Assembly: GCF_000265405.1 (NCBI RefSeq)
Contig: NC_018010.1
Location: 3,431,501 to 3,495,500, forward strand
Length of the DNA: 64,000 nt
Direction of reading: 5' to 3'
Source of the DNA: Belliella baltica DSM 15883
GTDB lineage: Bacteria > Bacteroidota > Bacteroidia > Cytophagales > Cyclobacteriaceae
The first letter of the stretch is position 1; each line of letters opens with the position of its first letter. Shown piece after piece: positions 7,425 to 19,863 of the stretch. The position numbers and the translations under genes were made by a program. The notes under the pieces were generated by a model. It ran no database searches and was not told the origin of the DNA. It was given only the letters and a program-made list of their open reading frames with translations.

Positions 7425-8496
7425 TCTCAGTCGATTTCCAAAAAAGCTTCAAACGGAATTAAAGAATAAATTTTCTGAATTATTGGAAAAGGGTATCTTC
7501 TCTGGCTCAGAGGAGGTGGAAATTTTAGAAGCTGAGCTCAAAAAGTACCTTGGTGCTCCATTTCTCTCTGTTTGTTCCAATGGAACAGATGCACTGGAAA
7601 TTGCATTGCGTGCTTTGAATATTGGTCAAGGGGATGATGTCATAGTGCCTGCGCTCTCCTGGGTTTCTACTGCTGAGGTAGTCTTACTCTGTGGAGCAAG
7701 ACCAGTTTTTATCGATACCAATTCCGAAGGTTTAATAGATTTATCACTTTTAGATCAGGTTTACACATCGAAAACCAAAGCGATTATCCCTGTTCATTTA
7801 TATGGTAATCTAGTTGACATGCCAACTTTAATTGATTGGGCAAAAATTAAGCAGGTAAAAGTTATAGAAGATGCTGCACAGGCTTTTGGGGCTTTTCAAG
7901 GCAATTGTAGTGCAGGCTTATTTGGTGACATTGGCTGTTTTAGTTTTTACCCCACCAAAAATTTTGGAGCATTAGGAGAAGCTGGGGCATTAACCTGTAA
8001 GGATGAGGAATTAGCTAGAAAACTTAAAGCCTTGATAAATCATGGTCAAATCAAAAGAGATCATCATATACTTGTTGGAAGAAATGCTCGAATAGATACA
8101 CTTCAAGCAGGCTTTTTAAATACAATCCTCCCCTATTTTGAGCCTTGGCAAAAACAAAGGAAATTTCTGGCTCATGTTTATCTAGAAGAATTGAAACATT
8201 TAGAATGGTTAAAATTGCCAAGAGACATAGAAAAGTCAACTCACAACGCCCACCTTTTTACCGTACAATGTAGAGAGAGAGACCAATTAAAAAGCTATTT
8301 GGAAGAAAAAGGAGTCGGAACAAGCATTCATTATCCAAGAATAATTCCAAAGATGAAACCTTATCTATTTGATCAAAATTTTACTGCAAGTGAGCAACTT
8401 GTCTCCCATGTACTTTCTTTACCTCTAAATCCTTTTTTGAGCCAACAGGAAGTTCTTCACATTTGTAAGTTGATCAAAAACTTTAAGTTAAAGTGA
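7399..8496 (+). CDS. DegT/DnrJ/EryC1/StrS family aminotransferase
   Basis: A 365-residue PLP-dependent sugar aminotransferase. Recognisable blocks are CSNGTDALEIAL (PLP phosphate site), VIEDAAQAFGA (ring-stacking Asp) and the internal aldimine motif FSFYPTKNFGALGEAG with Lys187. These enzymes transaminate nucleotide-linked keto-sugars to make amino sugars for surface glycans. The start at 7399 lies inside the preceding glycosyltransferase gene, so the pair forms a small glycan-synthesis operon. It ends one base before the convergent cas6 gene, leaving no room for a terminator. Confidence 0.9.
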   Translation: MPAKIPFLDLSRFPKKLQTELKNKFSELLEKGIFSGSEEVEILEAELKKYLGAPFLSVCSNGTDALEIALRALNIGQGDDVIVPALSWVSTAEVVLLCGARPVFIDTNSEGLIDLSLLDQVYTSKTKAIIPVHLYGNLVDMPTLIDWAKIKQVKVIEDAAQAFGAFQGNCSAGLFGDIGCFSFYPTKNFGALGEAGALTCKDEELARKLKALINHGQIKRDHHILVGRNARIDTLQAGFLNTILPYFEPWQKQRKFLAHVYLEELKHLEWLKLPRDIEKSTHNAHLFTVQCRERDQLKSYLEEKGVGTSIHYPRIIPKMKPYLFDQNFTASEQLVSHVLSLPLNPFLSQQEVLHICKLIKNFKLK

Positions 8497-8497
8497 A

Positions 8498-9277
8498 TTA
8501 CTTTACATTGACACATCCAAACCCTAAAGAATTTTGAGCTCCGAAACCAGCATAATAACCAAACTCTTGAAGCAATGGAGAAGCTTTTAATTTGAAATCA
8601 TATTTAAATCCTTTCAAATGAACCAGTTCATATTGATACATATTTAATACAATCTCCTCTTCTTCAGCTTGAGAAATCGGCTGAAATTCTATTTCAGGAC
8701 AATATTTCTCCAATTCAGTGATAGATTTTAATTCGGGAATAACTGATACAAAACGTTTTAATAAATCATTTTTAAAAAGCTCGGAATACCGATCATGTGA
8801 AGGAGAGATAAATTCAAACCCTCCAGACTGGGATTGATCATATAAAAAGACAGGTGTTACAGCACTATACACCATCTCACTTTTAAAAACAGGTGGTGGA
8901 ATTACCTCTAGATCAACTATTTTATAATCTACAAAACTTTCTCCTGAATTAAACCTGATACTTTTTCCGTAAATCAACTGATATAAATAATCTATAGCAT
9001 CATCTTCTAGCAAGATTCTGATATCAAGTGTACCTTCTTCTCCTAGATGCACCAAAGAACCCTTTTCTTCAATAATTTTTATTTGATCAAGGTCCAAATG
9101 TGAAAAAGTAAAAGGGATGTACCTAACAAACTCCTCCTTATCATTCAAAAACAGATGAAGTTTTGAAAAATCTGCCTTTTCCAAAATCCCTTCTAGTGCA
9201 GCAGAGAGTTGATATTGATAGTTCAGCGCAAATTGACACGCTTCACTTTCTCTTTTGAGTTTGATTAAAAATTGCAT
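8498..9277 (-). CDS. cas6: Cas6-family CRISPR endoribonuclease, orphan
   Basis: 259 residues with the hallmarks of Cas6: the N-terminal NYQYQLSAALEGIL helix (residues 19-32), a following LHLF with His41 at the usual general-base position, the FTFSHLD strand (56-62), PPPVF in the middle, and a glycine-rich C-terminal loop GYYAGFGAQNSLGFGCVNVK (240-259). Cas6 cuts pre-crRNA in type I and III systems; type II systems normally use RNase III. Here the gene is divergent from a Cas9-type array 150 bp away, and no type I/III effector gene is in the window. A TATATTAG -7 box (minus strand, 9282-9289) precedes the ATG. It looks intact. Whether it processes this array or serves a distant one is open. 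Confidence 0.85.
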   Translation of the reverse strand: MQFLIKLKRESEACQFALNYQYQLSAALEGILEKADFSKLHLFLNDKEEFVRYIPFTFSHLDLDQIKIIEEKGSLVHLGEEGTLDIRILLEDDAIDYLYQLIYGKSIRFNSGESFVDYKIVDLEVIPPPVFKSEMVYSAVTPVFLYDQSQSGGFEFISPSHDRYSELFKNDLLKRFVSVIPELKSITELEKYCPEIEFQPISQAEEEEIVLNMYQYELVHLKGFKYDFKLKASPLLQEFGYYAGFGAQNSLGFGCVNVK

Positions 9278-9325
9278 AGTTCTAATATAAAATATTATGC
9301 AATTTAGCCACTCAAGTCAGGAGAT

Positions 9326-9349
9326 AAAATACCCTGTTCTGGGTATTTT
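9326..9349. terminator. hairpin with T-run between cas6 and the array
   Basis: Arms AAAATACCC and GGGTATTTT with a six-base loop, followed on the plus strand by more T. No plus-strand gene ends here, so it may insulate the array from read-through out of the aminotransferase operon, or act as a regulatory palindrome upstream of cas6. It resembles the hairpins at 2244 and 18078. Confidence 0.45.
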
Positions 9350-9375
9350 TTATTTATTTATCATAATTAGAGACA

Positions 9376-9408
9376 AGACCTGTCAGGTTTCAAAAACCTG
9401 ACAGGTCT
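9376..9408. repeat. REP-like palindrome, family A
   Basis: Perfect 15 bp arms (AGACCTGTCAGGTTT and its complement) around a CAA loop. A second copy at 13033-13065 differs at one stem position in each arm, and the change is compensated (TCA/TGA to GCA/TGC), so the hairpin is preserved. Palindromes of this kind are typical partners of REP-associated tyrosine transposases, one of which lies at 13071-13649. Confidence 0.8.
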
Positions 9409-9427
9409 AAATAAAATCAATAATTAT

Positions 9428-11634
9428 GTTCGAATTAACCAAATTGATATCTTCCCAAGGGAATCACAGCCATTACCATAAGTAACGCCAAGCACGTCAG
9501 TTGTGAATTGCTTTCAAATCGACCATAGGGAGATTCATGAACTCCTTTGAAAATAATCAAAACGTGAATAAATTGATATCTTCCCAAGGGAATCACAGCT
9601 AGTTTTTAGGCCTTTGTTTAAACATTGTTGTTGTGAATTGCTTTCAAATCGACCATAGGGAGATTCATGAACTCCTTTGAAAATAATCAAAACGTGAATA
9701 AATTGATATCTTCCCAAGGGAATCACAGCAATATATATATTATAAAACCTACTACTTTAGTTGTGAATTGCTTTCAAATTGATATCTTCCCAAGGGAATC
9801 ACAGCAAGTAAAGAGTGTGGAGATGCAAAAGGTACGTTGTGAATTGCTTTCAAATCGACCATAGGGAGATTCATGAACTCCTTTGAAAATAATCAAAACG
9901 TGAATAAATTGATATCTTCCCAAGGGAATCACAGCGGATGAATATGAATTCATTCTTTGATTAGTGTTGTGAATTGCTTTCAAATCGACCATAGGGAGAT
10001 TCATGAACTCCTTTGAAAATAATCAAAACGTGAATAAATTGATATCTTCCCAAGGGAATCACAGCCTTTGCCATTCATAAAATCCTTCAGGTGTGGTTGT
10101 GAATTGCTTTCAAATTGATATCTTCCCAAGGGAATCACAGCGGAGGATTATTTTTTAATTGGTAACATGTAGTTGTGAATTGCTTTCAAATCGACCATAG
10201 GGAGATTCATGAACTCCTTTGAAAATAATCAAAACGTGAATAAATTGATATCTTCCCAAGGGAATCACAGCGGGTTGGAACGGTCAACTAGACTTCGGAC
10301 CGTTGTGAATTGCTTTCAAATTGATATCTTCCCAAGGGAATCACAGCGGCAAAAATCAAGTATTCCGCTTTAGTTTCGTTGTGAATTGCTTTCAAATTGA
10401 TATCTTCCCAAGGGAATCACAGCTGCGACCATTCAAACTCAGATTGAAATACAGTTGTGAATTGCTTTCAAATTGATATCTTCCCAAGGGAATCACAGCT
10501 GCAGATATTCTGCCCTGGACAATGAAGCGTTGTGAATTGCTTTCAAATTGATATCTTCCCAAGGGAATCACAGCCAAGACGTCCATCATGATATCTAAAT
10601 CATGTTGTGAATTGCTTTCAAATTGATATCTTCCCAAGGGAATCACAGCAATGGTGCGATATATAATACCAGGTTAATAGTTGTGAATTGCTTTCAAATT
10701 GATATCTTCCCAAGGGAATCACAGCATAAAGAAATGATGAAAAATTGGAGACCTCGTTGTGAATTGCTTTCAAATTGATATCTTCCCAAGGGAATCACAG
10801 CCTTCAGAAGTTAAAAACAAAGTATTTGTGGTTGTGAATTGCTTTCAAATTGATATCTTCCCAAGGGAATCACAGCCGCAGCTTGGAAATTAGCACTGAC
10901 AACACCGTTGTGAATTGCTTTCAAATTGATATCTTCCCAAGGGAATCACAGCAAGTTGCTCCTGAGAGTCAGGACAAAGCTGGTTGTGAATTGCTTTCAA
11001 ATTGATATCTTCCCAAGGGAATCACAGCTGCCTCGTCTAAGATGCCTTCAAATTCTTGTTGTGAATTGCTTTCAAATTGATATCTTCCCAAGGGAATCAC
11101 AGCTCTTTGCACTTGCTTTTAGTATATCTTGTTGTTGTGAATTGCTTTCAAATTGATATCTTCCCAAGGGAATCACAGCCATTTCTTTGAATACGATTGC
11201 GAAGAAGTGGTTGTGAATTGCTTTCAAATTGATATCTTCCCAAGGGAATCACAGCATATTTGGGGTATGGCTGGAGGAAGACCTAGTTGTGAATTGCTTT
11301 CAAATTGATATCTTCCCAAGGGAATCACAGCGATTTCAGGAGTTATCAAGGCTTGGTAAAGGTTGTGAATTGCTTTCAAATTGATATCTTCCCAAGGGAA
11401 TCACAGCTTTCGGAGTATCTTCAAAGATTTTAGCAAGTTGTGAATTGCTTTCAAATTGATATCTTCCCAAGGGAATCACAGCTTAATTGATGCTGACAAG
11501 CGAGTCTACAGGGTTGTGAATTGCTTTCAAATTGATATCTTCCCAAGGGAATCACAGCTTCTTATTTGAGCTAATTTTATCAGCTTCTGTTGTGAATTGC
11601 TTTCAAATTGATATCTTCCCAAGGGAATCACAGC
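9428..11634 (+). CRISPR. type II-C CRISPR array: 26 repeats, 25 spacers
   Basis: The consensus repeat is 46 bp, beginning GTTGTGAATTGCTTTCAAAT and ending AAGGGAATCACAGC; spacers are 29 or 30 bp. The first unit (9428-9470) is degenerate in its 5' half, which marks this as the ancestral end; the last unit (11589-11634) is perfect. Of the 25 intact units, 20 are 46 bp and five are 100 bp composites (9500, 9630, 9836, 9966, 10172). The crRNA sense is +, because the tracrRNA anti-repeat is complementary to repeat positions 2-24; this is opposite to the cas genes. Repeat positions 24-31 (TATCTTCC) resemble a Bacteroidota -7 box and lie 19 bp after a TTG, so each repeat may carry its own promoter, as reported for other type II-C arrays. 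Short open frames inside the array are repeat artefacts. Confidence 0.98.
9500..10271 (+). repeat. cluster of five 100 bp composite CRISPR repeats
   Basis: Units at 9500-9599, 9630-9729, 9836-9935, 9966-10065 and 10172-10271 are identical. Each is the normal repeat with 54 bp inserted after position 20 (in the first unit, 9520-9573). AAAT flanks the insert on both sides. The insert holds a near-palindrome, GGAG-a-TTCATGAA-CTCC (9529-9545). It also contains material that looks like the 3' half of a repeat (CCATAGGGAGATTCA against CCAAGGGAATCACA), while the junction GTGAATAAATTGATATC matches a repeat lacking the seven bases TGCTTTC. The composite may thus be two diverged repeats around a frozen spacer. 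Normal 46 bp units at 9760, 10096 and 10302 alternate with them. Confidence 0.95.
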
Positions 11635-11669
11635 ATACCCCACGTTAAGTGGCTGGTATGCTGTTTTTT
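11631..11669 (+). terminator. intrinsic terminator closing the CRISPR array
   Basis: CAGCATACC at 11631-11639 pairs with GGTATGCTG at 11655-11663. An inner CCAC/GTGG stem extends the pairing, and six T follow (11664-11669). The first four bases of the stem are the last four of the final repeat, so terminator and array are physically fused. Orientation agrees with plus-strand transcription of the array towards cas2. Confidence 0.85.
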
Positions 11670-11736
11670 ATACATTATTTTTGAATTTAAAAAACTATTG
11701 GATCCTGAAGCCTTAGATTGAGAACTGACCAATTTT

Positions 11737-11769
11737 AACTTTTCCAAAGTTTCGAACTTTGGAAAAGTT
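11737..11769. repeat. REP-like palindrome, family B, copy 1
   Basis: Perfect 15 bp arms (AACTTTTCCAAAGTT and complement) with a TCG loop, lying just past the cas2 stop. An identical 33 bp copy lies inside the transposase gene at 13417-13449, and a related one is at 13685-13714. Confidence 0.85.
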
Positions 11770-11781
11770 TTACGAACCTTA

Positions 11782-13018
<1,237 letters not shown>

Positions 13019-13032
13019 AAATTGTTATTTAA

Positions 13033-13065
13033 AGACCTGGCAGGTTTTTGAAACCTGCCAGGTCT
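13033..13065. repeat. REP-like palindrome, family A, copy 2
   Basis: Perfect 15 bp arms (AGACCTGGCAGGTTT and complement) around TTG. It lies 5 bp beyond the transposase stop and 14 bp upstream of the cas1 start codon, so it could influence cas1 expression. It pairs in type with the palindrome at 9376-9408 on the far side of the array. Confidence 0.8.
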
Positions 13066-13070
13066 GAATC

Positions 13071-13649
13071 TTACTCCAAATTTTTATTCATCAACCAATC
13101 CTTTTTCATTTCCATCAAATTTCTCACATGCTCCCAACCATCAAAGAAATTGGTAAAGTATTCTCTGTCCAGATTTGAAGGCTTTTTGAGATTCTGGTAG
13201 GCATGCCAACTTGACCACTTCCAATCTTGGTGATCTTTGACAAACCCATGCTTCACGGGGTTGAGGTGGATATATAGGAAAGTTTCTTGCCATTGACTTT
13301 CGTCGAGGATTGGGGTTCTTTTGAAATTTTTTATAAATAAACTTCCTTTCCTATCATACACTTTATTAAAAGACTGAGTGTAAGAACTGAAGAAATTAGC
13401 GAATTGCTTGGAGATTAACTTTTCCAAAGTTTCGAACTTTGGAAAAGTTGACTTTAACTGCTCCTCTTCCTTAACCCCCACCAGCAAATGGAAATGATTT
13501 GGCATCAGGCAATAGGCATAAGTATCTACTACTCCAGCCAAATACTTTGCACATTGCTGCAAAAAGAACCTATAATTCTCTTCTTCACGAAATATATTCT
13601 CCATTCCATTGGCGTGATTGTAGATATGGTAGGATTGGCCTAGCTCCAT
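13071..13649 (-). CDS. REP-associated tyrosine transposase (RAYT, IS200-like Y1)
   Basis: 192 residues of the Y1 transposase superfamily. The HUH motif is HFH at 52-54 (MPNHFHLLVGV), and the catalytic tyrosine is Tyr126 in YIHLNPVKHGFV, the signature of RAYT proteins, which mobilise palindromic REP sequences rather than whole insertion sequences. It lies between cas9 and cas1 in the same orientation and is surrounded by five palindromes of two families. A perfect 33 bp family-B palindrome lies inside the gene (13417-13449) and encodes residues 67-78 in frame. The frame appears intact. A broken copy of its 5' end lies immediately upstream. Confidence 0.93.
   Translation of the reverse strand: MELGQSYHIYNHANGMENIFREEENYRFFLQQCAKYLAGVVDTYAYCLMPNHFHLLVGVKEEEQLKSTFPKFETLEKLISKQFANFFSSYTQSFNKVYDRKGSLFIKNFKRTPILDESQWQETFLYIHLNPVKHGFVKDHQDWKWSSWHAYQNLKKPSNLDREYFTNFFDGWEHVRNLMEMKKDWLMNKNLE
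13417..13449. repeat. REP-like palindrome, family B, inside the RAYT gene
   Basis: Identical over 33 bp to the palindrome at 11737-11769 (arms AACTTTTCCAAAGTT, loop TCG). It is read in frame as roughly STFPKFETLEKL, between the HUH motif and the catalytic tyrosine. Confidence 0.9.
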
Positions 13650-13807
13650 AAGTTAAATTTTTGAACGACTAGCATATAGGATAACTCTTCCAAAGTTTTA
13701 GAACTTTGGAAGAGGTGAAAAAAGAACCCGTAATTCTCTTCTTCACGAAAGATATTCTCAATTACATTGGCGTGATTGTAGATATGGTAGGATTTTTCTA
13801 TTTCCAT
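13645..13807 (-). pseudogene. truncated 5' copy of the RAYT gene
   Basis: From an ATG at 13807, three bases after the cas9 stop, about 85 bp closely match the 5' end of the intact transposase (MEIEKSYHIYNHANVIENIF against MELGQSYHIYNHANGMENIF). The homology breaks off at a family-B palindrome (13685-13714). The frame then runs on without similarity and stops inside the start of the intact gene. This is a remnant of an earlier insertion or of a tandem duplication. Confidence 0.8.
13685..13714. repeat. REP-like palindrome, family B variant
   Basis: Perfect 13 bp arms (CTCTTCCAAAGTT and complement) around TTAG. The core CCAAAGTT is shared with the two identical copies at 11737 and 13417. It lies exactly where the truncated RAYT copy loses homology. 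Confidence 0.85.
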
Positions 13808-13810
13808 TTT

Positions 13811-16800
13811 CTAATACTCTCCTATCTGAATAATTTTCCCAAGGTGATTAATTCTAATTTTAATTATGCCCCTTAAATGTTCTGGTGTTTGATAAAAATG
13901 ATAGGTAATCTTAGATAGCTCTTTCTTGGACTTTAACAGATCATTATCCACTGCTTTAGTTTCCAAATGATTGTTAAAAACATAATTCTTTCTAGCAATT
14001 TTCTGCACTCTAAATAAATTTGGACTAATCAAATGGTAATTTTGCTCATCCATCAAGTCTACGTCAGCAGGGACAAAATCATCTGAAGGAAAAACGAAGT
14101 ACTCATTCTGTTTCAGCGTAAATAAGAACTTCCATCCTAAAGTGTGGTTTTTTTTGATAATTGGTAAACCTTGATTCTGCCTAACAACGGCCTCAAAAAA
14201 GGAAACTACCTCTTCTTGAAGATTTCCATTTTCATCCTCGTAAATCGCAACATGATGATTATTACCTGTACTGACAAAATCAACTGGTATTTCATTTCCT
14301 TCCTGATCAAGAATTGGTTCTCCGAAATGATCTTTCTTCACATGAAGTGATTCTACATTGCTAACACCTGAAATCTTGACTCTTTTAATTGAAATACCTT
14401 TCTCCTTGTTTAGCCAGATAGGATTTTCTTCAAGATTTGAAAATGCAAGCTTAGCATTACCTCCAAACTCTTCCAATCGGCTTTCTAATATTCTTTTTAT
14501 ACCAACATCAATAACTTTATCCACCTTCAAATCCGGATCAATATTTTTTCTGATGGTGTAATTTTGCTCGAGCACAACAGTTTTAACTTTTTCAGATAGC
14601 TTGATATTTTTCCCCAGATCCAAATATATTGGCATTTTATTCAAGGTATTTTTTCCAGTAAATGCTTTTTTGGGGTCATTCCCATTCTCAGCTAGCCTTT
14701 TCAAAAGGGCTTCTCTTTCTTCTTTCTTGGCAACAGTATTAATTTTCTGAACATTGAAAGAAGCACCGATTTTCTCAAACTTTGTACTGTAGTGAAAGGA
14801 CTTCCCGTAAACTGTCTCCTTATGAAGCTGACCTCTTGGCGTTAATGCAATTTGTTCATTTAAACCTGCTTTACTCTTCGTTTTATTCTTGTTAATTGTA
14901 ACAACTTTATTTTTTGCCTTGTAAGAAACCAAGATCCTTGAAAGGTGCTTTTTAGCCTCAGATCTAATATTTTCTATGGGAGGAATAAAACAAAGTTTCC
15001 CATTTTCTCTTTTAAGATACTTTTGTTCTATGGCGAAAACCTCTGTTCCTTTTTTATTATTTAATCCTTTAGCATTCAAATTATTGAGATATTGAATATA
15101 TGCTGGTTTTGTTAAAGCAACAGTAAGTGCATCCATCGCATGATGGCGGTGATCATTCCTTTTACTCCAATCTTTGATTTTATTTAACCTTTCACCATGT
15201 TTCCCTTCAATTGTATAGGTCAAACCTAACTTATCGTACTTTTCCCAATTCAGCTCTTTCATAATCTCTACCAATCCCCAATCTTCCCTTAGTTTATCGG
15301 TAATAGTTCCTGTAGTAACTGAAACTCTCCTTGAAATCTCAAAGAGAATTTCCTTCGCCTTTTTGCTGATGTATCGAGTTTCTTGAAGCTGTCTAGCAAT
15401 AAAATCCTCTGGGATTTTATCATTGGCCATCAAAAGCTTTTGTATTTTGGCCTTACTCAATTTCCCGTAAAGCGATTTCACTCGAGATTGATATTGCTCA
15501 AACTCATCAGCAGATAGTTTATTTTGAAGAAAACTAAACGCAGTAACATTCGCTTTATCAATATTCAACTGTCTTTCACAAATAGTTTTGTTCGAAAAAG
15601 AATCATCAAATAACCTTGCTTTGGGAATAATATGCTCAATGTCATATTCCTTGGAAAAAAGTTTACTGGCCTCAATTGGCTTACCAGTGTAAAGAGAAAT
15701 CCCATCTGTTTCAAGCCAAAGCTTGTAGCGTAACAAATCGTTTTTAGTAACTCTTTTTAGTCCAAATTCACTTTTGAGTATTTCTCTATATTTATCATGG
15801 TCTCGAGTTGCTGACGCAATATTGGAAGTCATATTTTTTCTTTGTTCAGCATTTGCTTTTAGCTCTCGAGCCATTTCAACTCTTATTTCATCAGGTCTTC
15901 CTAGCTCTGGATCCTTTAAAATCGCATTTACTACATTTATCATCTGATTAAGAATCTTCTCTACGACAGGATTTCTTAAAGAATTCTTTTTTAATAATTC
16001 CAACTCTGCTCTCAACTCCCTCTTTTCATTTTCATCTTTTGTAAATGAAGAAGAATGATTATATCCTGCATAGGTACAAGCCTTGTCGTAAATAAGCCCA
16101 GATTGAAGATGTGGTAATATTTTTTTTATTGCCCTACTACTTAAGGAAGCGTGATCATCTTGAAGACTAATACTTGCCAAAATTTTTGCATGTTCAGGTT
16201 TGAAACCAAACTTTCTGATCAAATTTAGCTTTAATTTCTGATCATCCTCAGAGCTATATAATAAATGCCAAAATTGAATGTAGGACTGTTTTTCATATTC
16301 TGCCCCCTCGATATCACTATTTACTTGAAGTAATTCTGTATCTATGCCAATTCTCAAAAAAGCTTCAGAAAACTGATCCAAAATATCATCAGCTTTCAAA
16401 TCACCCAAATCTATTGGCTCACCATCTTCTAATTCAATGATTTTTGCAAATGCATCAAAAAAAGCTTGGTTGGTACGGTTGCCTTCTATTTTTGTAAAAT
16501 TGAATTCCCATTCATTAGGCTTTAAGCCTAAAATTTTCAAGGCATCTTTTACATTTAACTCCCTCTTAAAAGCCAATTCATTAGCCAAAGCAATTTTACT
16601 CTCCAGTTCGAGATCAAATTTCTCATTAAGATTGTCTTTCTTAATTAGAAGGAGATTGTTCAGGTTTTGCCATATTCTGAATTCTTGAAAGACAGGATGT
16701 GATTTAGGTACAACTTTATGATGATCTTCAAACTCACAATTACTAATAAGGTGTTTTTGAGATTTAAGCCGACGCTGAAAGAAAATAGTAATATCCCTAA

Positions 16801-17869
16801 CCTCCCTTTTTAATGCATCATTTAATTGAGGATAAAAACTTGACTGTACACTCCAAATCCTTTCGAATTCATCCAAATAATCCTGTCTATAAAAAACCTG
16901 TCCTTTCAATCTTGTATGGGGATTCTTTTTGATTTGCTGATACAGATATTGCCCAACAGTTAAATTTTTGAAGTATAACTCCTTACTTCTATCACTAATA
17001 GCACCTAAATAGCCACTGGAATTGGATATTTGAGAATTAATTTGGGAAAGAATTAATGCGATTTCCGAAAGATCTATTTTAAAGTTTACTGCTTCAGCTC
17101 TCCATTTATATTCTTGTAATCTTCTTTCTTCCCGTTTTCCTTTATTTTCGGCTAATTGAACTCCTTTTTTATTGAAATATTGCTTTGTAGGAGTACTAGC
17201 TTTTCCCATCCAATCTTCAACAAAAGATGCATTAAAAATATCTGGAAAGAATTCAGATTGGTAATTCACAATTTTCTTAAATTCTTCCTGAAGATCAGAT
17301 CTGTAAAAATCAGGAACATTCTTTCTTCCTTTTTGCAAAGCTTCATAGACCCACTGTCCAGGAGTTAGGTCATTTTCATATAACTCCTTAGCTATACCCA
17401 TACTATCAATGGCAGAACCATCATCTTCTTCTGACTTTGCTTTTCTACTACTTTTATAGCCTCTTTTTTTATTGATTTGTAATAGGACTTTCACTAAATC
17501 CTGGAGCTCAATTTTTTCTTTGGCTGCTTTAGCTCTTAGATTCAATGTTGAAAAAGTAGAAGATGGACCATCCTCAGCATATTTGAAGTTTGTAGAAATT
17601 AATTTCTTTTCTTTAAAGATTTCAAGAAGTGCATTTCTCCTTTGCTTGAATCGTTGTAAGTTTCTTCTGGCTCCTCTTTTAAGAGTCCTATCTGCATTAA
17701 TTGATATAGTATTCCCCTTAGCAAAGTCATTTTCTTCATCAGAACTGAGAGGTACTATCCTTACTCCCATATCAACAATTTCACTTCCAACCACATCTTT
17801 TTCAGGTTCTTTGATAAAAGCCCAACCAATTGAAGTAGTCCCCAAATCCAATCCCAAAATCTTTTTCAT
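13811..17869 (-). CDS. cas9: CRISPR-associated nuclease Cas9 (type II-C)
   Basis: 1352 residues, within the range of large Bacteroidota II-C Cas9 proteins. All catalytic blocks are present. RuvC-I is KKILGLDLGTTSIGWAF (Asp8), followed by an arginine-rich bridge helix (RTLKRGARRNLQRFKQRR). RuvC-II is EIRVEMARELK (Glu665), HNH is YDIEHIIPKARLFDDSFSNK (His746, Asn769) and RuvC-III is HRHHAMDALTV (Asp913). The long C-terminal part should hold the wedge and PAM-interacting domains. The protein is therefore predicted to be an active RNA-guided double-strand nuclease. It is divergent from the tracrRNA 42 bp upstream and is followed within 3 bp by transposase remnants. The absence of csn2 and cas4 supports II-C. 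Confidence 0.97.
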   Translation of the reverse strand: MKKILGLDLGTTSIGWAFIKEPEKDVVGSEIVDMGVRIVPLSSDEENDFAKGNTISINADRTLKRGARRNLQRFKQRRNALLEIFKEKKLISTNFKYAEDGPSSTFSTLNLRAKAAKEKIELQDLVKVLLQINKKRGYKSSRKAKSEEDDGSAIDSMGIAKELYENDLTPGQWVYEALQKGRKNVPDFYRSDLQEEFKKIVNYQSEFFPDIFNASFVEDWMGKASTPTKQYFNKKGVQLAENKGKREERRLQEYKWRAEAVNFKIDLSEIALILSQINSQISNSSGYLGAISDRSKELYFKNLTVGQYLYQQIKKNPHTRLKGQVFYRQDYLDEFERIWSVQSSFYPQLNDALKREVRDITIFFQRRLKSQKHLISNCEFEDHHKVVPKSHPVFQEFRIWQNLNNLLLIKKDNLNEKFDLELESKIALANELAFKRELNVKDALKILGLKPNEWEFNFTKIEGNRTNQAFFDAFAKIIELEDGEPIDLGDLKADDILDQFSEAFLRIGIDTELLQVNSDIEGAEYEKQSYIQFWHLLYSSEDDQKLKLNLIRKFGFKPEHAKILASISLQDDHASLSSRAIKKILPHLQSGLIYDKACTYAGYNHSSSFTKDENEKRELRAELELLKKNSLRNPVVEKILNQMINVVNAILKDPELGRPDEIRVEMARELKANAEQRKNMTSNIASATRDHDKYREILKSEFGLKRVTKNDLLRYKLWLETDGISLYTGKPIEASKLFSKEYDIEHIIPKARLFDDSFSNKTICERQLNIDKANVTAFSFLQNKLSADEFEQYQSRVKSLYGKLSKAKIQKLLMANDKIPEDFIARQLQETRYISKKAKEILFEISRRVSVTTGTITDKLREDWGLVEIMKELNWEKYDKLGLTYTIEGKHGERLNKIKDWSKRNDHRHHAMDALTVALTKPAYIQYLNNLNAKGLNNKKGTEVFAIEQKYLKRENGKLCFIPPIENIRSEAKKHLSRILVSYKAKNKVVTINKNKTKSKAGLNEQIALTPRGQLHKETVYGKSFHYSTKFEKIGASFNVQKINTVAKKEEREALLKRLAENGNDPKKAFTGKNTLNKMPIYLDLGKNIKLSEKVKTVVLEQNYTIRKNIDPDLKVDKVIDVGIKRILESRLEEFGGNAKLAFSNLEENPIWLNKEKGISIKRVKISGVSNVESLHVKKDHFGEPILDQEGNEIPVDFVSTGNNHHVAIYEDENGNLQEEVVSFFEAVVRQNQGLPIIKKNHTLGWKFLFTLKQNEYFVFPSDDFVPADVDLMDEQNYHLISPNLFRVQKIARKNYVFNNHLETKAVDNDLLKSKKELSKITYHFYQTPEHLRGIIKIRINHLGKIIQIGEY

Positions 17870-17898
17870 ATTTTTATAAAAGTTTAAAGTTTAAAATC

Positions 17899-17906
17899 TA
17901 TATTAG
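17899..17906 (+). promoter_or_regulatory. -7 box of the tracrRNA promoter
   Basis: TATATTAG, one base from the Bacteroidota TAnnTTTG consensus, ends 5 bp before the anti-repeat. Transcription would therefore start almost exactly at the anti-repeat. The same octamer precedes cas6 (9282-9289, minus) and the cyclophilin gene (18211-18218). Confidence 0.55.
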
Positions 17907-17910
17907 CGTC

Positions 17911-18003
17911 ATCAATTTGAAGCAATTCACAATAAGGATTATTCCGTTGTGGAAACATTTAAGAGGGCCCCGAAGGATTTGATCTTTCGGGGTCGTCTTT
18001 TTT
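17911..18003 (+). ncRNA. tracrRNA
   Basis: The anti-repeat at 17911-17932 is complementary to repeat positions 2-24 with a single one-base gap. It is followed by AATAAGGATTATTCCGTTGT, closely parallel to the nexus region of known tracrRNAs. A strong terminator hairpin (CCCCGAAGGAT at 17968-17978 with ATCTTTCGGGG at 17982-17992) and a T-run to about 18003 complete it. Predicted length is about 93 nt. It lies upstream of and divergent from cas9, a common II-C layout. The duplex orientation proves that mature crRNA derives from the plus strand of the array. Composite repeats keep the first 20 paired bases, so their crRNAs should still bind it. Confidence 0.93.
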
Positions 18004-18077
18004 GTTTTCTAAAATCTCCTAACTGATCAATCTCTCACTTTTTTTGATTTTCTAAAATAACCTAAACTTTTCTATAA

Positions 18078-18103
18078 AAAAATACCAACAAGTGGGTATT
18101 TTC
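18078..18103. repeat. A/T-flanked palindrome upstream of the cyclophilin gene
   Basis: AAAATACC and GGTATTTT arms around AACAAGTG. The core matches the hairpin at 2244-2270 (TACC, ACAAGT, GGTA) and loosely that at 9326. It could be a terminator for a short transcript or a regulator site; no gene end is close on either strand apart from the tracrRNA terminator 75 bp before it. Confidence 0.45.
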
Positions 18104-18222
18104 ACCCCAGTTATAAAATGTACGACAATTTATGTCAAACTTAATATTTTAAAATTTCTCAACATTAAAAATTCAACTGACTTAGAAGAAGCTATTCAAA
18201 TCTAGATTCATATATTAGCTCA

Positions 18223-18798
18223 ATGAAAATAAAAGCAGCACTCACCCTAATCTGTTTGATGTTTCTTAATTGCTCCTTTGGTCAAAAAACCAATCCGATT
18301 GGATTGATTGAAACGAGTTATGGCAATATTTACATCAAACTATTTGAGGAAACACCGAAGCATAAGGCAAGTTTTATTTCTTTAGCACAAAGTGGTTATT
18401 GGGATTCATTGACCTTCAACCGAGTAATTCCAAATTTTGTCGCTCAAGCAGGTTGCCCAGATACTGAAGAAGGGTTCAATGACCCAGAATATCTCTTAGA
18501 ACCAGAGTTTGTCAAAGGAATTACCCATGTCTATGGCGCCGTTGGTGCAGGAAGAGATGATAACCCTGGAAAACTATCTGCAAGATGTCAATTTTATATC
18601 GTTCAAAACAAAAATGGATTAAATAGATTAGATAATGATTACACTGTTTTTGGTCAAGTAATCAAAGGAATGAATATCGTAGATAAAATCGTAATTCAAA
18701 AAACGGATGCTGATGATGAGCCTCTTACTGACATTTCAATGAAAATTAGTATAGTTCAAATGACAAATATTGAAATTGAAAAACTTCAAGAAAACTAA
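18223..18798 (+). CDS. cyclophilin-type peptidyl-prolyl isomerase, exported
   Basis: 191 residues. An N-terminal signal (MKIKAALTLICLMFLNCSFG) directs export, possibly as a lipoprotein (LNCS). The cyclophilin core follows with YGNIYIKLFEETPKH, the catalytic segment FNRVIPNFVAQAGCP and a C-terminal DYTVFGQVIKGMNIVDKI. It would assist folding of periplasmic or outer-membrane proteins. A TATATTAG box lies 5 bp before the ATG, suggesting a leaderless or very short-leader transcript. Monocistronic. Confidence 0.9.
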   Translation: MKIKAALTLICLMFLNCSFGQKTNPIGLIETSYGNIYIKLFEETPKHKASFISLAQSGYWDSLTFNRVIPNFVAQAGCPDTEEGFNDPEYLLEPEFVKGITHVYGAVGAGRDDNPGKLSARCQFYIVQNKNGLNRLDNDYTVFGQVIKGMNIVDKIVIQKTDADDEPLTDISMKISIVQMTNIEIEKLQEN

Positions 18799-18897
18799 CT
18801 TGAGCTATCCTATCAATTCACAGTAACAAAACATTCTTTTTCAAACAAAATCAAATACTACTATCCGATTTTCGTTTATATTTCATAATTTCAAGGC

Positions 18898-19863
18898 ATG
18901 ATTTGGGCATATCCGGACGGAAGTTTATTAACATGGTTGGCAGTGATTTTTATATTGCTTTACACCATTTATTTATATCGATTTTATCTCATCAACAGAA
19001 AACTACAGGTGAAAAAGCATCGCATTTTCATAAAAGTGATGTTGCGTACTTCTTACTTTGTACTTTTTTTGATCGCGCTCTCAGGACCTTCTGTTGGTAC
19101 CTCGATGAAAGAAATCAAAGAAGAAGGAAAAGACATTTTTATAGCGATCGATTTATCTCAGTCAATGAATGCTACAGATATCGGCCCATCTAGATTGCAG
19201 AGAGTGAAATTCGAATTGAAAAATCTAACAAAGAGTTTTGCCGGAGATAGGATCGGATTGATTATTTTCAGTTCTGAAGCATTTGTACAATGTCCCCTTA
19301 CCTTTGATCAAAATGTATTGCAGCTCCATATCGATGGGCTGAATACAGGACTTGTACCTAGTCAGGGAACAGATATCAATGCGCCTTTACAGATGGCTTT
19401 GAGTAAATTTCAAACCGACGAAAGGCCAGAAACCAATAGCAGGTCTGTTATATTGGTTTCTGATGGAGAAGATTTTGGTGATAATTTCCGTCCAATCATC
19501 GATGAACTTACCAATTCAGGAATCAAAGTTTTTAGTTTAGGAGTAGGTACTTCACAAGGTTCCACAATTCCTAGAGGAAATAACCTAATCATCGATCCAA
19601 AAACTAATCAACCCGCTATCACGAAATTAGAGACAACAAATTTGAAATTCTTGGCAGCACAAACCGAAGGGGCTTACTTTGAACTGAGTGATGAAAATCA
19701 AGAAATTCCTGATTTAATTGCTGCTATTGAAAGAGAAGAAGGTGCTGTCACAGGAAGTAGAATGGTTGAAGCCTCAGCAAACAAATACTTCTATTTCCTT
19801 ATTATTGGTTTATGTCTGGCATTTATTGACATGATTTTCCCATTACGAACTATCAACTTGTAA
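18898..19863 (+). CDS. batB: VWA-domain membrane protein, BatB-like
   Basis: 321 residues. Two N-terminal membrane helices, a von Willebrand A domain with an intact MIDAS (DLSQSMNATD and later SDGEDFGD), and a C-terminal helix (FYFLIIGLCLAFIDMIFPL). This is the Bat (Bacteroides aerotolerance) architecture; BatA and BatB differ little, so the letter is tentative. Bat proteins form a periplasm-facing membrane complex linked to oxidative stress. The next gene (20 bp downstream) is a BatC-type TPR protein, supporting the assignment. Confidence 0.85.
   Translation: MIWAYPDGSLLTWLAVIFILLYTIYLYRFYLINRKLQVKKHRIFIKVMLRTSYFVLFLIALSGPSVGTSMKEIKEEGKDIFIAIDLSQSMNATDIGPSRLQRVKFELKNLTKSFAGDRIGLIIFSSEAFVQCPLTFDQNVLQLHIDGLNTGLVPSQGTDINAPLQMALSKFQTDERPETNSRSVILVSDGEDFGDNFRPIIDELTNSGIKVFSLGVGTSQGSTIPRGNNLIIDPKTNQPAITKLETTNLKFLAAQTEGAYFELSDENQEIPDLIAAIEREEGAVTGSRMVEASANKYFYFLIIGLCLAFIDMIFPLRTINL

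Follow-up and report, generated by a model that had tools for sequence, protein, structure and literature searches.

The type II-C CRISPR array of Belliella baltica DSM 15883 contains repeats of two lengths, namely 20 intact repeats of 46 bp and five composite repeats of 100 bp that carry a 54-bp insert (here called X), in addition to one degenerate terminal repeat. We consider it fairly probable that X was inserted long ago into the oldest repeat, that the resulting 100-bp unit was copied together with new spacers by Cas1-Cas2, and that X was occasionally lost again exactly. The insertion of an element at the old end, taken alone, can be put forward with considerable confidence, while the route of copying, by Cas1-Cas2 or by recombination, is unproven. 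A small element appears to live inside CRISPR repeats across genera.

An array with two repeat lengths

The array lies in a window of 64,000 nucleotides (positions 3,431,501 to 3,495,500 of contig NC_018010.1, assembly GCF_000265405.1), to which the window coordinates given here refer. Its features are:

9441..11634, + strand: whole type II-C array, 26 repeats and 25 spacers; left, oldest end; right, leader end
about 9441..9470, + strand: degenerate 'extra' repeat, the oldest; lacks its 5' half and matches over ~30 nt in the 3' part
9500..9599, + strand: composite repeat 1 (insert 9520-9573)
9630..9729, + strand: composite repeat 2 (insert 9650-9703)
9836..9935, + strand: composite repeat 3 (insert 9856-9909)
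9966..10065, + strand: composite repeat 4 (insert 9986-10039)
10172..10271, + strand: composite repeat 5 (insert 10192-10245)
11635..11669, + strand: leader-side flank, hairpin then T6, terminator-like

From left to right, the order of repeats is degenerate, C, C, N, C, C, N, C and then 18 N (C, composite; N, 46-bp repeat), with the 46-bp repeats starting at 9760, at 10096 and, for the other 18, from 10302 to 11589. No letter differs among the five composites. X is exactly 54 bp long and follows repeat position 20, with AAAT on either side (its boundary can equivalently be stated as TCGACC...AATAAA after AAA), and removal of these 54 bp between the AAAT flanks restores the exact normal repeat. 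All 25 spacers measure 29-30 nt and each is unique; the longest substring common to any two of them is 8 nt, and X has at most 7 nt in a row in common with a spacer.

An earlier note on this DNA had described five identical 100-bp units, the 54-bp insert that follows repeat position 20 and is flanked on either side by AAAT, 20 further intact units of exactly 46 bp and intact 30-bp spacers between the composites, all of which was borne out by coordinates and letters, the spacers being 29-30 nt long. The count of five composites comes from one single-contig assembly alone (4,196,595 bases). An assembly artefact, which the note had considered as an objection to the unit, is spoken against by composites in other genomes.

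cas genes, tracrRNA and repeat function

The following features accompany the array:

8498-9277: cas6, left of the array, beside its old end
11782..12231, - strand: cas2 (PF09827, 1.6e-17; TIGR01573, 2.2e-19)
12122..13018, - strand: cas1, type II (TIGR03639, 2.3e-88)
13071..13649, - strand: Y1 transposase gene resembling REP-associated transposases (RAYT); NF047646, 72.8 bits, under the cut-off of 80; without Pfam match
13811..17869, - strand: cas9 (TIGR01865, 2.9e-155)
about 17911..18005, + strand: putative tracrRNA with anti-repeat, nexus and terminator hairpin, beyond cas9; ends set by eye

By profile matches to cas9, type II cas1 and cas2, and by a putative tracrRNA with anti-repeat, the locus is assigned to type II-C. 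As regards csn2 and cas4, genes that type II-C loci lack, the minus-strand open reading frames of at least 100 aa in the interval from array to cas9 are cas2, cas1 and the RAYT-like gene. The anti-repeat (G000:C1:3449411-3449432) matches the reverse complement of repeat nt 2-24 (E=0.0135); Rfam gave no match within window positions 8000-19000. Predicted pairing with the anti-repeat amounts to -29.0 kcal/mol for the normal repeat, -23.5 kcal/mol for the composite and -11.1 kcal/mol for the degenerate first repeat. The composites would thus retain most of the predicted tracrRNA pairing and, thereby, most of what guide maturation needs, and the low value modelled for the degenerate first repeat is in line with the way in which the extra repeat is known to be weakened. 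Since it is the first 20 nt of a composite that pair with the tracrRNA in this prediction, crRNA is probably still made from spacers upstream of composites.

In 31 of 31 distinct repeats, hand-copied as a subset of all repeats parsed from 72 sources, TTG is followed by TA 18-20 nt on (in 29 of them at 19), compared with a mean of 13.1 and a maximum of 21 in shuffled controls; these repeats are homologous and so do not count independently. TTG is a putative -33 element according to a section of PMC8092290, and the putative promoter carried by normal repeats (TTG-N19-TA) is split by X in the composites.

Several further observations concern the neighbourhood of the array. The Cas9 proteins of the window (1352 aa) and of B. 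buryatensis (1523 aa) are only 26 percent identical, as against 97 percent for Cas1, so that the cas9 gene seems to have been swapped. A partial copy of the 5' part of the transposase gene lies beside cas9 at about 13728-13810 (by eye). Of the 20 loci L075-L094, 15 (all but L085, L087, L088, L093 and L094) have a RAYT-like Y1 transposase gene immediately upstream of cas1, as do L113 and L127; in four Belliella the gene stands between cas1 and cas9, and none was found in the Aquimarina and Croceitalea loci. Palindromes (GACCTG..CAGGTC; CCAAAGTT..AACTTTGG) lie at about 9374-9409, 13034-13066 and 11740-11770 of the window, in the vicinity of array and transposase gene, and are met again in related genomes. 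A cas6 gene lies beside the old end of the II-C array in four Belliella genomes, with no match in B. alkalica (L080), and type III RAMP genes were found in two of eight genomes of the genus, the window genome having no match.

Composites at the old end of related arrays

Degenerate repeats mark the left end of the window array and of other Belliella arrays. The right-end repeat of the window array is perfect and is followed by the hairpin-T6 flank, which has the same letters in three Belliella genomes and two changes in a fourth. In type II-C systems, new spacers enter at the downstream end, the oldest repeat being the first one (PMC12080349), and transcription proceeds from repeat promoters toward the leader (PMC8092290, in part). 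The degenerate left end, the uniform right end by a conserved flank and this direction of acquisition together place the composites of the window array among its oldest repeats, at the leader-distal end.

Composites were also found in relatives. B. buryatensis has two close ones (94 and 92 percent identity) at its old end, and another Belliella species (G006) has four diverged ones at its old end, of which only the innermost adjoins a spacer; no composite was seen in B. calami and B. alkalica. With the composite as query, 4 of 18 other genomes gave matches at E<=1e-4, namely Indibacter alkaliphilus (two composites), Algoriphagus sp. AGSA1, A. algorifonticola (one, from two contig ends) and A. 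hitonicola (two, one of them cut by Ns). Further composites occur in G046 (two), G137, G387 and G395. In all of these arrays, from B. buryatensis and G006 to G395, a composite lies at the oldest end, with a common site and orientation. Stretches of 30-31 nt that resemble spacers stand on both sides of composites in B. buryatensis, G046 and Aquimarina, and in A. hitonicola up to an assembly gap.

A search for the junction pattern matched 21 of 390 family genomes, six with true composites (four read; two, G303 and G319, assigned by position to A. hitonicola and A. algorifonticola) and the rest chance-like by eye; since the pattern misses the known composites of G003, G006 and Indibacter, 6/390 is a lower bound. 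Ten other old ends were inspected, with a composite in A. algorifonticola only and none in the remaining nine. An automatic survey of 87 sources, which misses eroded units and arrays cut by contig ends, parsed repeats in 72, nearly all of 46-47 bp, and detected composite-like spacing in the window, B. buryatensis and Aquimarina only.

The G046 array opens with a degenerate repeat that by eye resembles a composite after erosion; two composites come next, and the newer repeats, of which two were seen in full, are normal. Its composites differ from each other at four places, every one of them within X and outside the repeat halves, and both composites carry CAAAT while both normal repeats seen carry CAGAT. 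In the species read, the repeat 3' halves of composites equal those of the local normal repeat. As a separate observation, a leader and a composite-like repeat stand in tandem at the leader end of Croceitalea L131 (12300-13200), with a period of 252 bp and no spacers between them.

X as a member of a small family

Judged by its letters, X is one member of a small family that consists of a variable hairpin followed by the core TTCATGAACnCCnTTGAAAA...GTGAATAAA and is mostly flanked by AAA. The more widely shared form of the hairpin is AATCGACC-nnn-GGGAGATT, and its stems vary among X copies (AATC/GATT, ACC/GGT and TGC/GCA, by eye). The near-palindrome GGAG-a-TTCATGAA-CTCC, to which the earlier note had drawn attention, is indeed present, but its CTCC arm is not general among relatives: it occurs in three Belliella, whereas Indibacter, AGSA1 and A. 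algorifonticola have CACC (alignment A3). Formal covariation is slight, with one of five consensus pairs changed on both sides in the family model R1, and the insert folded alone does no better than shuffles (z -0.38).

R1 was built on alignment A3 from 10 inserts of six genomes, all of them CRISPR copies and one typed from two contig ends. A search of the insert against its own genome, as the note had proposed, returned the five array copies, the next R1 match having E=0.32; a search of related genomes revealed composites in other Belliella, Indibacter and Algoriphagus arrays, and X also outside CRISPR. In a survey of 118 sampled family genomes, run with stricter filters, R1 matched 25 at E<=0.01, where about one would be expected if the rough E-values hold. 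The best match lies in a CRISPR array (G000, G064, G046, G137) or in the scar of a CRISPR locus (G097, G109, G121) in seven of these 25 genomes; in the other 18, the best-match locus is without the exact GTTGTGAATTGCTTTCA motif, which a diverged repeat would escape. G044 contains 41 R1 matches within one genome, and its X motif sits inside a longer dispersed element. Copies outside CRISPR have lower R1 scores and vary in their hairpin. AAA stands at both ends of 34 of the 47 distinct long rows of R1 matches, a count that is descriptive only, because R1 itself contains these letters. Four of 23 further genomes, mostly Flavobacteriaceae, had matches at E<=0.01, and the Aquimarina and Croceitalea inserts were not reached by R1 at this threshold. 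By these matches, X occurs outside CRISPR loci as well as in the repeats of Belliella, Indibacter and Algoriphagus.

In L179, L183, L186 and L190, X lies within sequence resembling a group II intron reverse transcriptase, before an RLRYCIW-like motif, and brings in stop codons (by eye); a scripted search for reverse transcriptase motifs was positive in L181, L183, L185 and L190. In L171 (G109), L170 (G097) and L175 (G121), what is left of a composite stands near a tracrRNA-like terminator and the vicinity has no repeat motif; these are probably scars of deleted II-C loci.

We considered other identities for X and rejected them. There are weak matches next to the tracrRNA of L131 (E 0.06 and 0.86) and of L145 (E 0.031; 0.0034 in another search), and X lies near a tracrRNA-like terminator in G097, G109 and G121, where by eye it seems to belong to deleted-locus scars; no derivation of X from tracrRNA is claimed. 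The neighbouring cas6 prompted the idea of a type III/Cas6 repeat, yet RAMP genes were not found in the window genome, and of the RAMP-bearing relatives, L073 has an array with a 37-nt repeat that by eye is unlike X and L072 is without a parsed array. A Bacteroidota promoter is suggested by TTG-N19-TAAAT (by eye), which is also present in X copies outside arrays and is therefore no evidence for a promoter role.

Aquimarina intermedia (L142) carries four copies of a 53-55 bp insert in its repeats, in reverse orientation and at a different AAA of the repeat (TTT at nt 13-15). Reverse-complemented, one of them aligns to the window insert with a score of 22, which none of 2000 mononucleotide shuffles reaches (maximum 15); in pairwise alignment the likeness lies mainly in the first 32 nt. 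As R1 misses the Aquimarina insert, its membership in the X family is likely, not proven. In this array, composites interleave with normal repeats, and trailer-flank sequence is embedded between spacers, next to composites. Such flank sequence between spacers cannot come from acquisition, so recombination does move such units in Aquimarina.

Discussion

CRISPR repeats are generally taken to owe their length to the integrase. The two repeat lengths of this natural array, for which other species offer parallels, provide a test of how the Cas1-Cas2 of type II-C finds its second integration site, and it suggests that array finders that assume one repeat length would mis-cut such arrays. Among the matches listed in the open-access literature, we found no report of elements inside CRISPR repeats that are copied with spacers, and those listed for the insert motif as text were all unrelated; Belliella and CRISPR are co-mentioned there a single time, in work on Porphyromonas that names Belliella once.

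In the history that we favour, X would have entered the leader-distal repeat of an ancestral array. The composite would at times have been the leader-adjacent repeat, for example after the array had shrunk to its oldest repeat, and Cas1-Cas2 would then have used the outer ends for integration, duplicating all 100 bp along with every new 30-bp spacer; this could occur because the composite termini (GTTGTG... and ...CACAGC) are intact. Single copies would have lost X exactly between the AAAT flanks, giving a normal 46-bp repeat, and once the leader-proximal copy had lost X, every later repeat would be 46 bp long. Copying by acquisition with occasional exact loss would account for the window order, C C N C C N C with nothing but N thereafter and no spacer present twice, and for the succession of old composites and new normal repeats in G046. 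Several points weigh against this history: a leader-adjacent composite that gains spacers was found in none of the arrays examined, the composite-like repeats by the leader copies of Croceitalea are not separated by spacers, nine of the ten other old ends inspected are without a composite, and R1 derives from CRISPR copies, scores lower outside arrays and misses the Aquimarina and Croceitalea inserts. Alignments of the degenerate first repeat as a former composite were no better than shuffles. Tentatively, and with less assurance than for this history, we suggest that the Cas1-Cas2 of type II-C may recognise the outer repeat ends and not a fixed 46-bp length, tolerating a 54-bp passenger (perhaps with its hairpin extruded), so that the element would multiply within the immune memory and loss of the passenger in fill-in would give mixed 46/100-bp arrays.

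The main rival to copying by acquisition is homologous recombination between the repeat halves, by unequal crossover or gene conversion, which would have spread composites among normal repeats after X had entered one of them, Cas1-Cas2 having no part in it. Although recombination clearly acts in Aquimarina, where trailer flank lies between spacers next to composites, we consider it rather unlikely as the origin of the composites. It would explain that composites and normal repeats are interleaved in the window array, that composite and flank form tandem copies in G006, Indibacter, AGSA1, G387 and G395, and that, in the species read, the halves of composites agree with the local normal repeat; this agreement, and the confinement of the G046 differences to X, may reflect homogenisation by recombination. 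Unequal exchange within one array should, however, leave duplicated spacers, of which the window array has none; the common halves measure only 20 and 26 bp, and CAGAT in the normal repeats of G046 against CAAAT in its composites indicates that the halves are not fully homogenised.

Two further explanations appear less plausible still. Independent, site-specific transposition of X into several repeats, at one AAA each time, would account for the presence of AAA beside the insert, both in the CRISPR repeats of two families of bacteria and at numerous sites elsewhere, and the RAYT-like gene that precedes cas1 in most of the loci L075-L094 (15 of 20) could point to a transposase; we nevertheless judge it improbable. 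The window genome has no source copy elsewhere, the five copies are identical in sequence and orientation, and the transposase gene is flanked by other palindromes, was not found in the Aquimarina and Croceitalea loci, and encodes motifs (NHFH and YIHLNP, by eye) that fit a subclass tabulated with 'no' secondary structures in a part of PMC6006769. As the mover of X, this gene is thus unsupported by flanks, motifs and distribution. The earlier note had also proposed that the unit represents two repeats plus a frozen spacer, with an eroded middle, and the insert tail GTGAATAAAT and the head are by eye loosely like repeat halves. This idea is very hard to credit: X keeps its sequence between genera that differ in the 3' halves of their repeats, the Aquimarina insert that resembles it has the opposite orientation, and the X copies in loci without II-C repeats contradict a spacer frozen between two repeats. 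The alternative offered by the note, a small mobile element inserted into a repeat and subsequently copied, fared better. Its landing is supported by family members outside CRISPR, by the exact empty site in the 46-bp repeats and by the resembling inverted insert of Aquimarina; its copying is likely.

Comparison with known systems

Insertions of MITEs or IS elements are a known case of mobile sequence within CRISPR arrays. X resembles them in this respect, but it sits inside a repeat, leaves both repeat ends intact and occurs in several units with unique spacers. Compared with the terminal inverted repeats and target-site duplication of MITEs, X shows AAA at both ends in the 34 of 47 rows mentioned above and an inverted repeat that is internal only. 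Non-autonomous elements derived from IS200/IS605, which depend on a Y1 transposase for mobility, have subterminal hairpins and a fixed short flank and make no duplication; what X shows in this regard is one hairpin and flanking AAA.

Like REP or REPIN elements with their RAYTs, X is a short hairpin element that is dispersed in some genomes, and a RAYT-like gene is present in the cas locus. Unlike them, X is not dispersed in the window genome, its five copies all being in the array, and the RAYT-like gene is flanked by palindromes other than X, with no R1 match there. The foot of the X hairpin is AAAT (by eye), neither GTAG nor CGTC, the tags typical of REP/RAYT elements in the text cited from PMC3733652.

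The 'extra' repeat system of type II-C, as portrayed in part of PMC12080349, has, 5'-most in the transcribed array, an oldest repeat that is mutated and pairs poorly with tracrRNA, and adds spacers at the other end, all as in Belliella. It differs in that the cited part deals with repeat mutations, terminators and hairpins, and there with no element within repeats and no long repeats inside the array.

The earlier note had argued that Cas1-Cas2 fixes the repeat length and that a 100-bp unit is therefore unexpected. That argument is weaker than stated, since in the type II-A system of Streptococcus thermophilus, according to sections of PMC6895254, acquisition is not blocked when 1 nt is inserted between the leader junction and a far-end ruler; what changes is the position of the second integration site. 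The insertions there measure 1-3 nt, in another subtype, and the 54 bp of X are far beyond this tested range; the two systems are alike in that an insertion before the far-end ruler shifts the second site in S. thermophilus, and that both repeat ends are intact in the Belliella composites.
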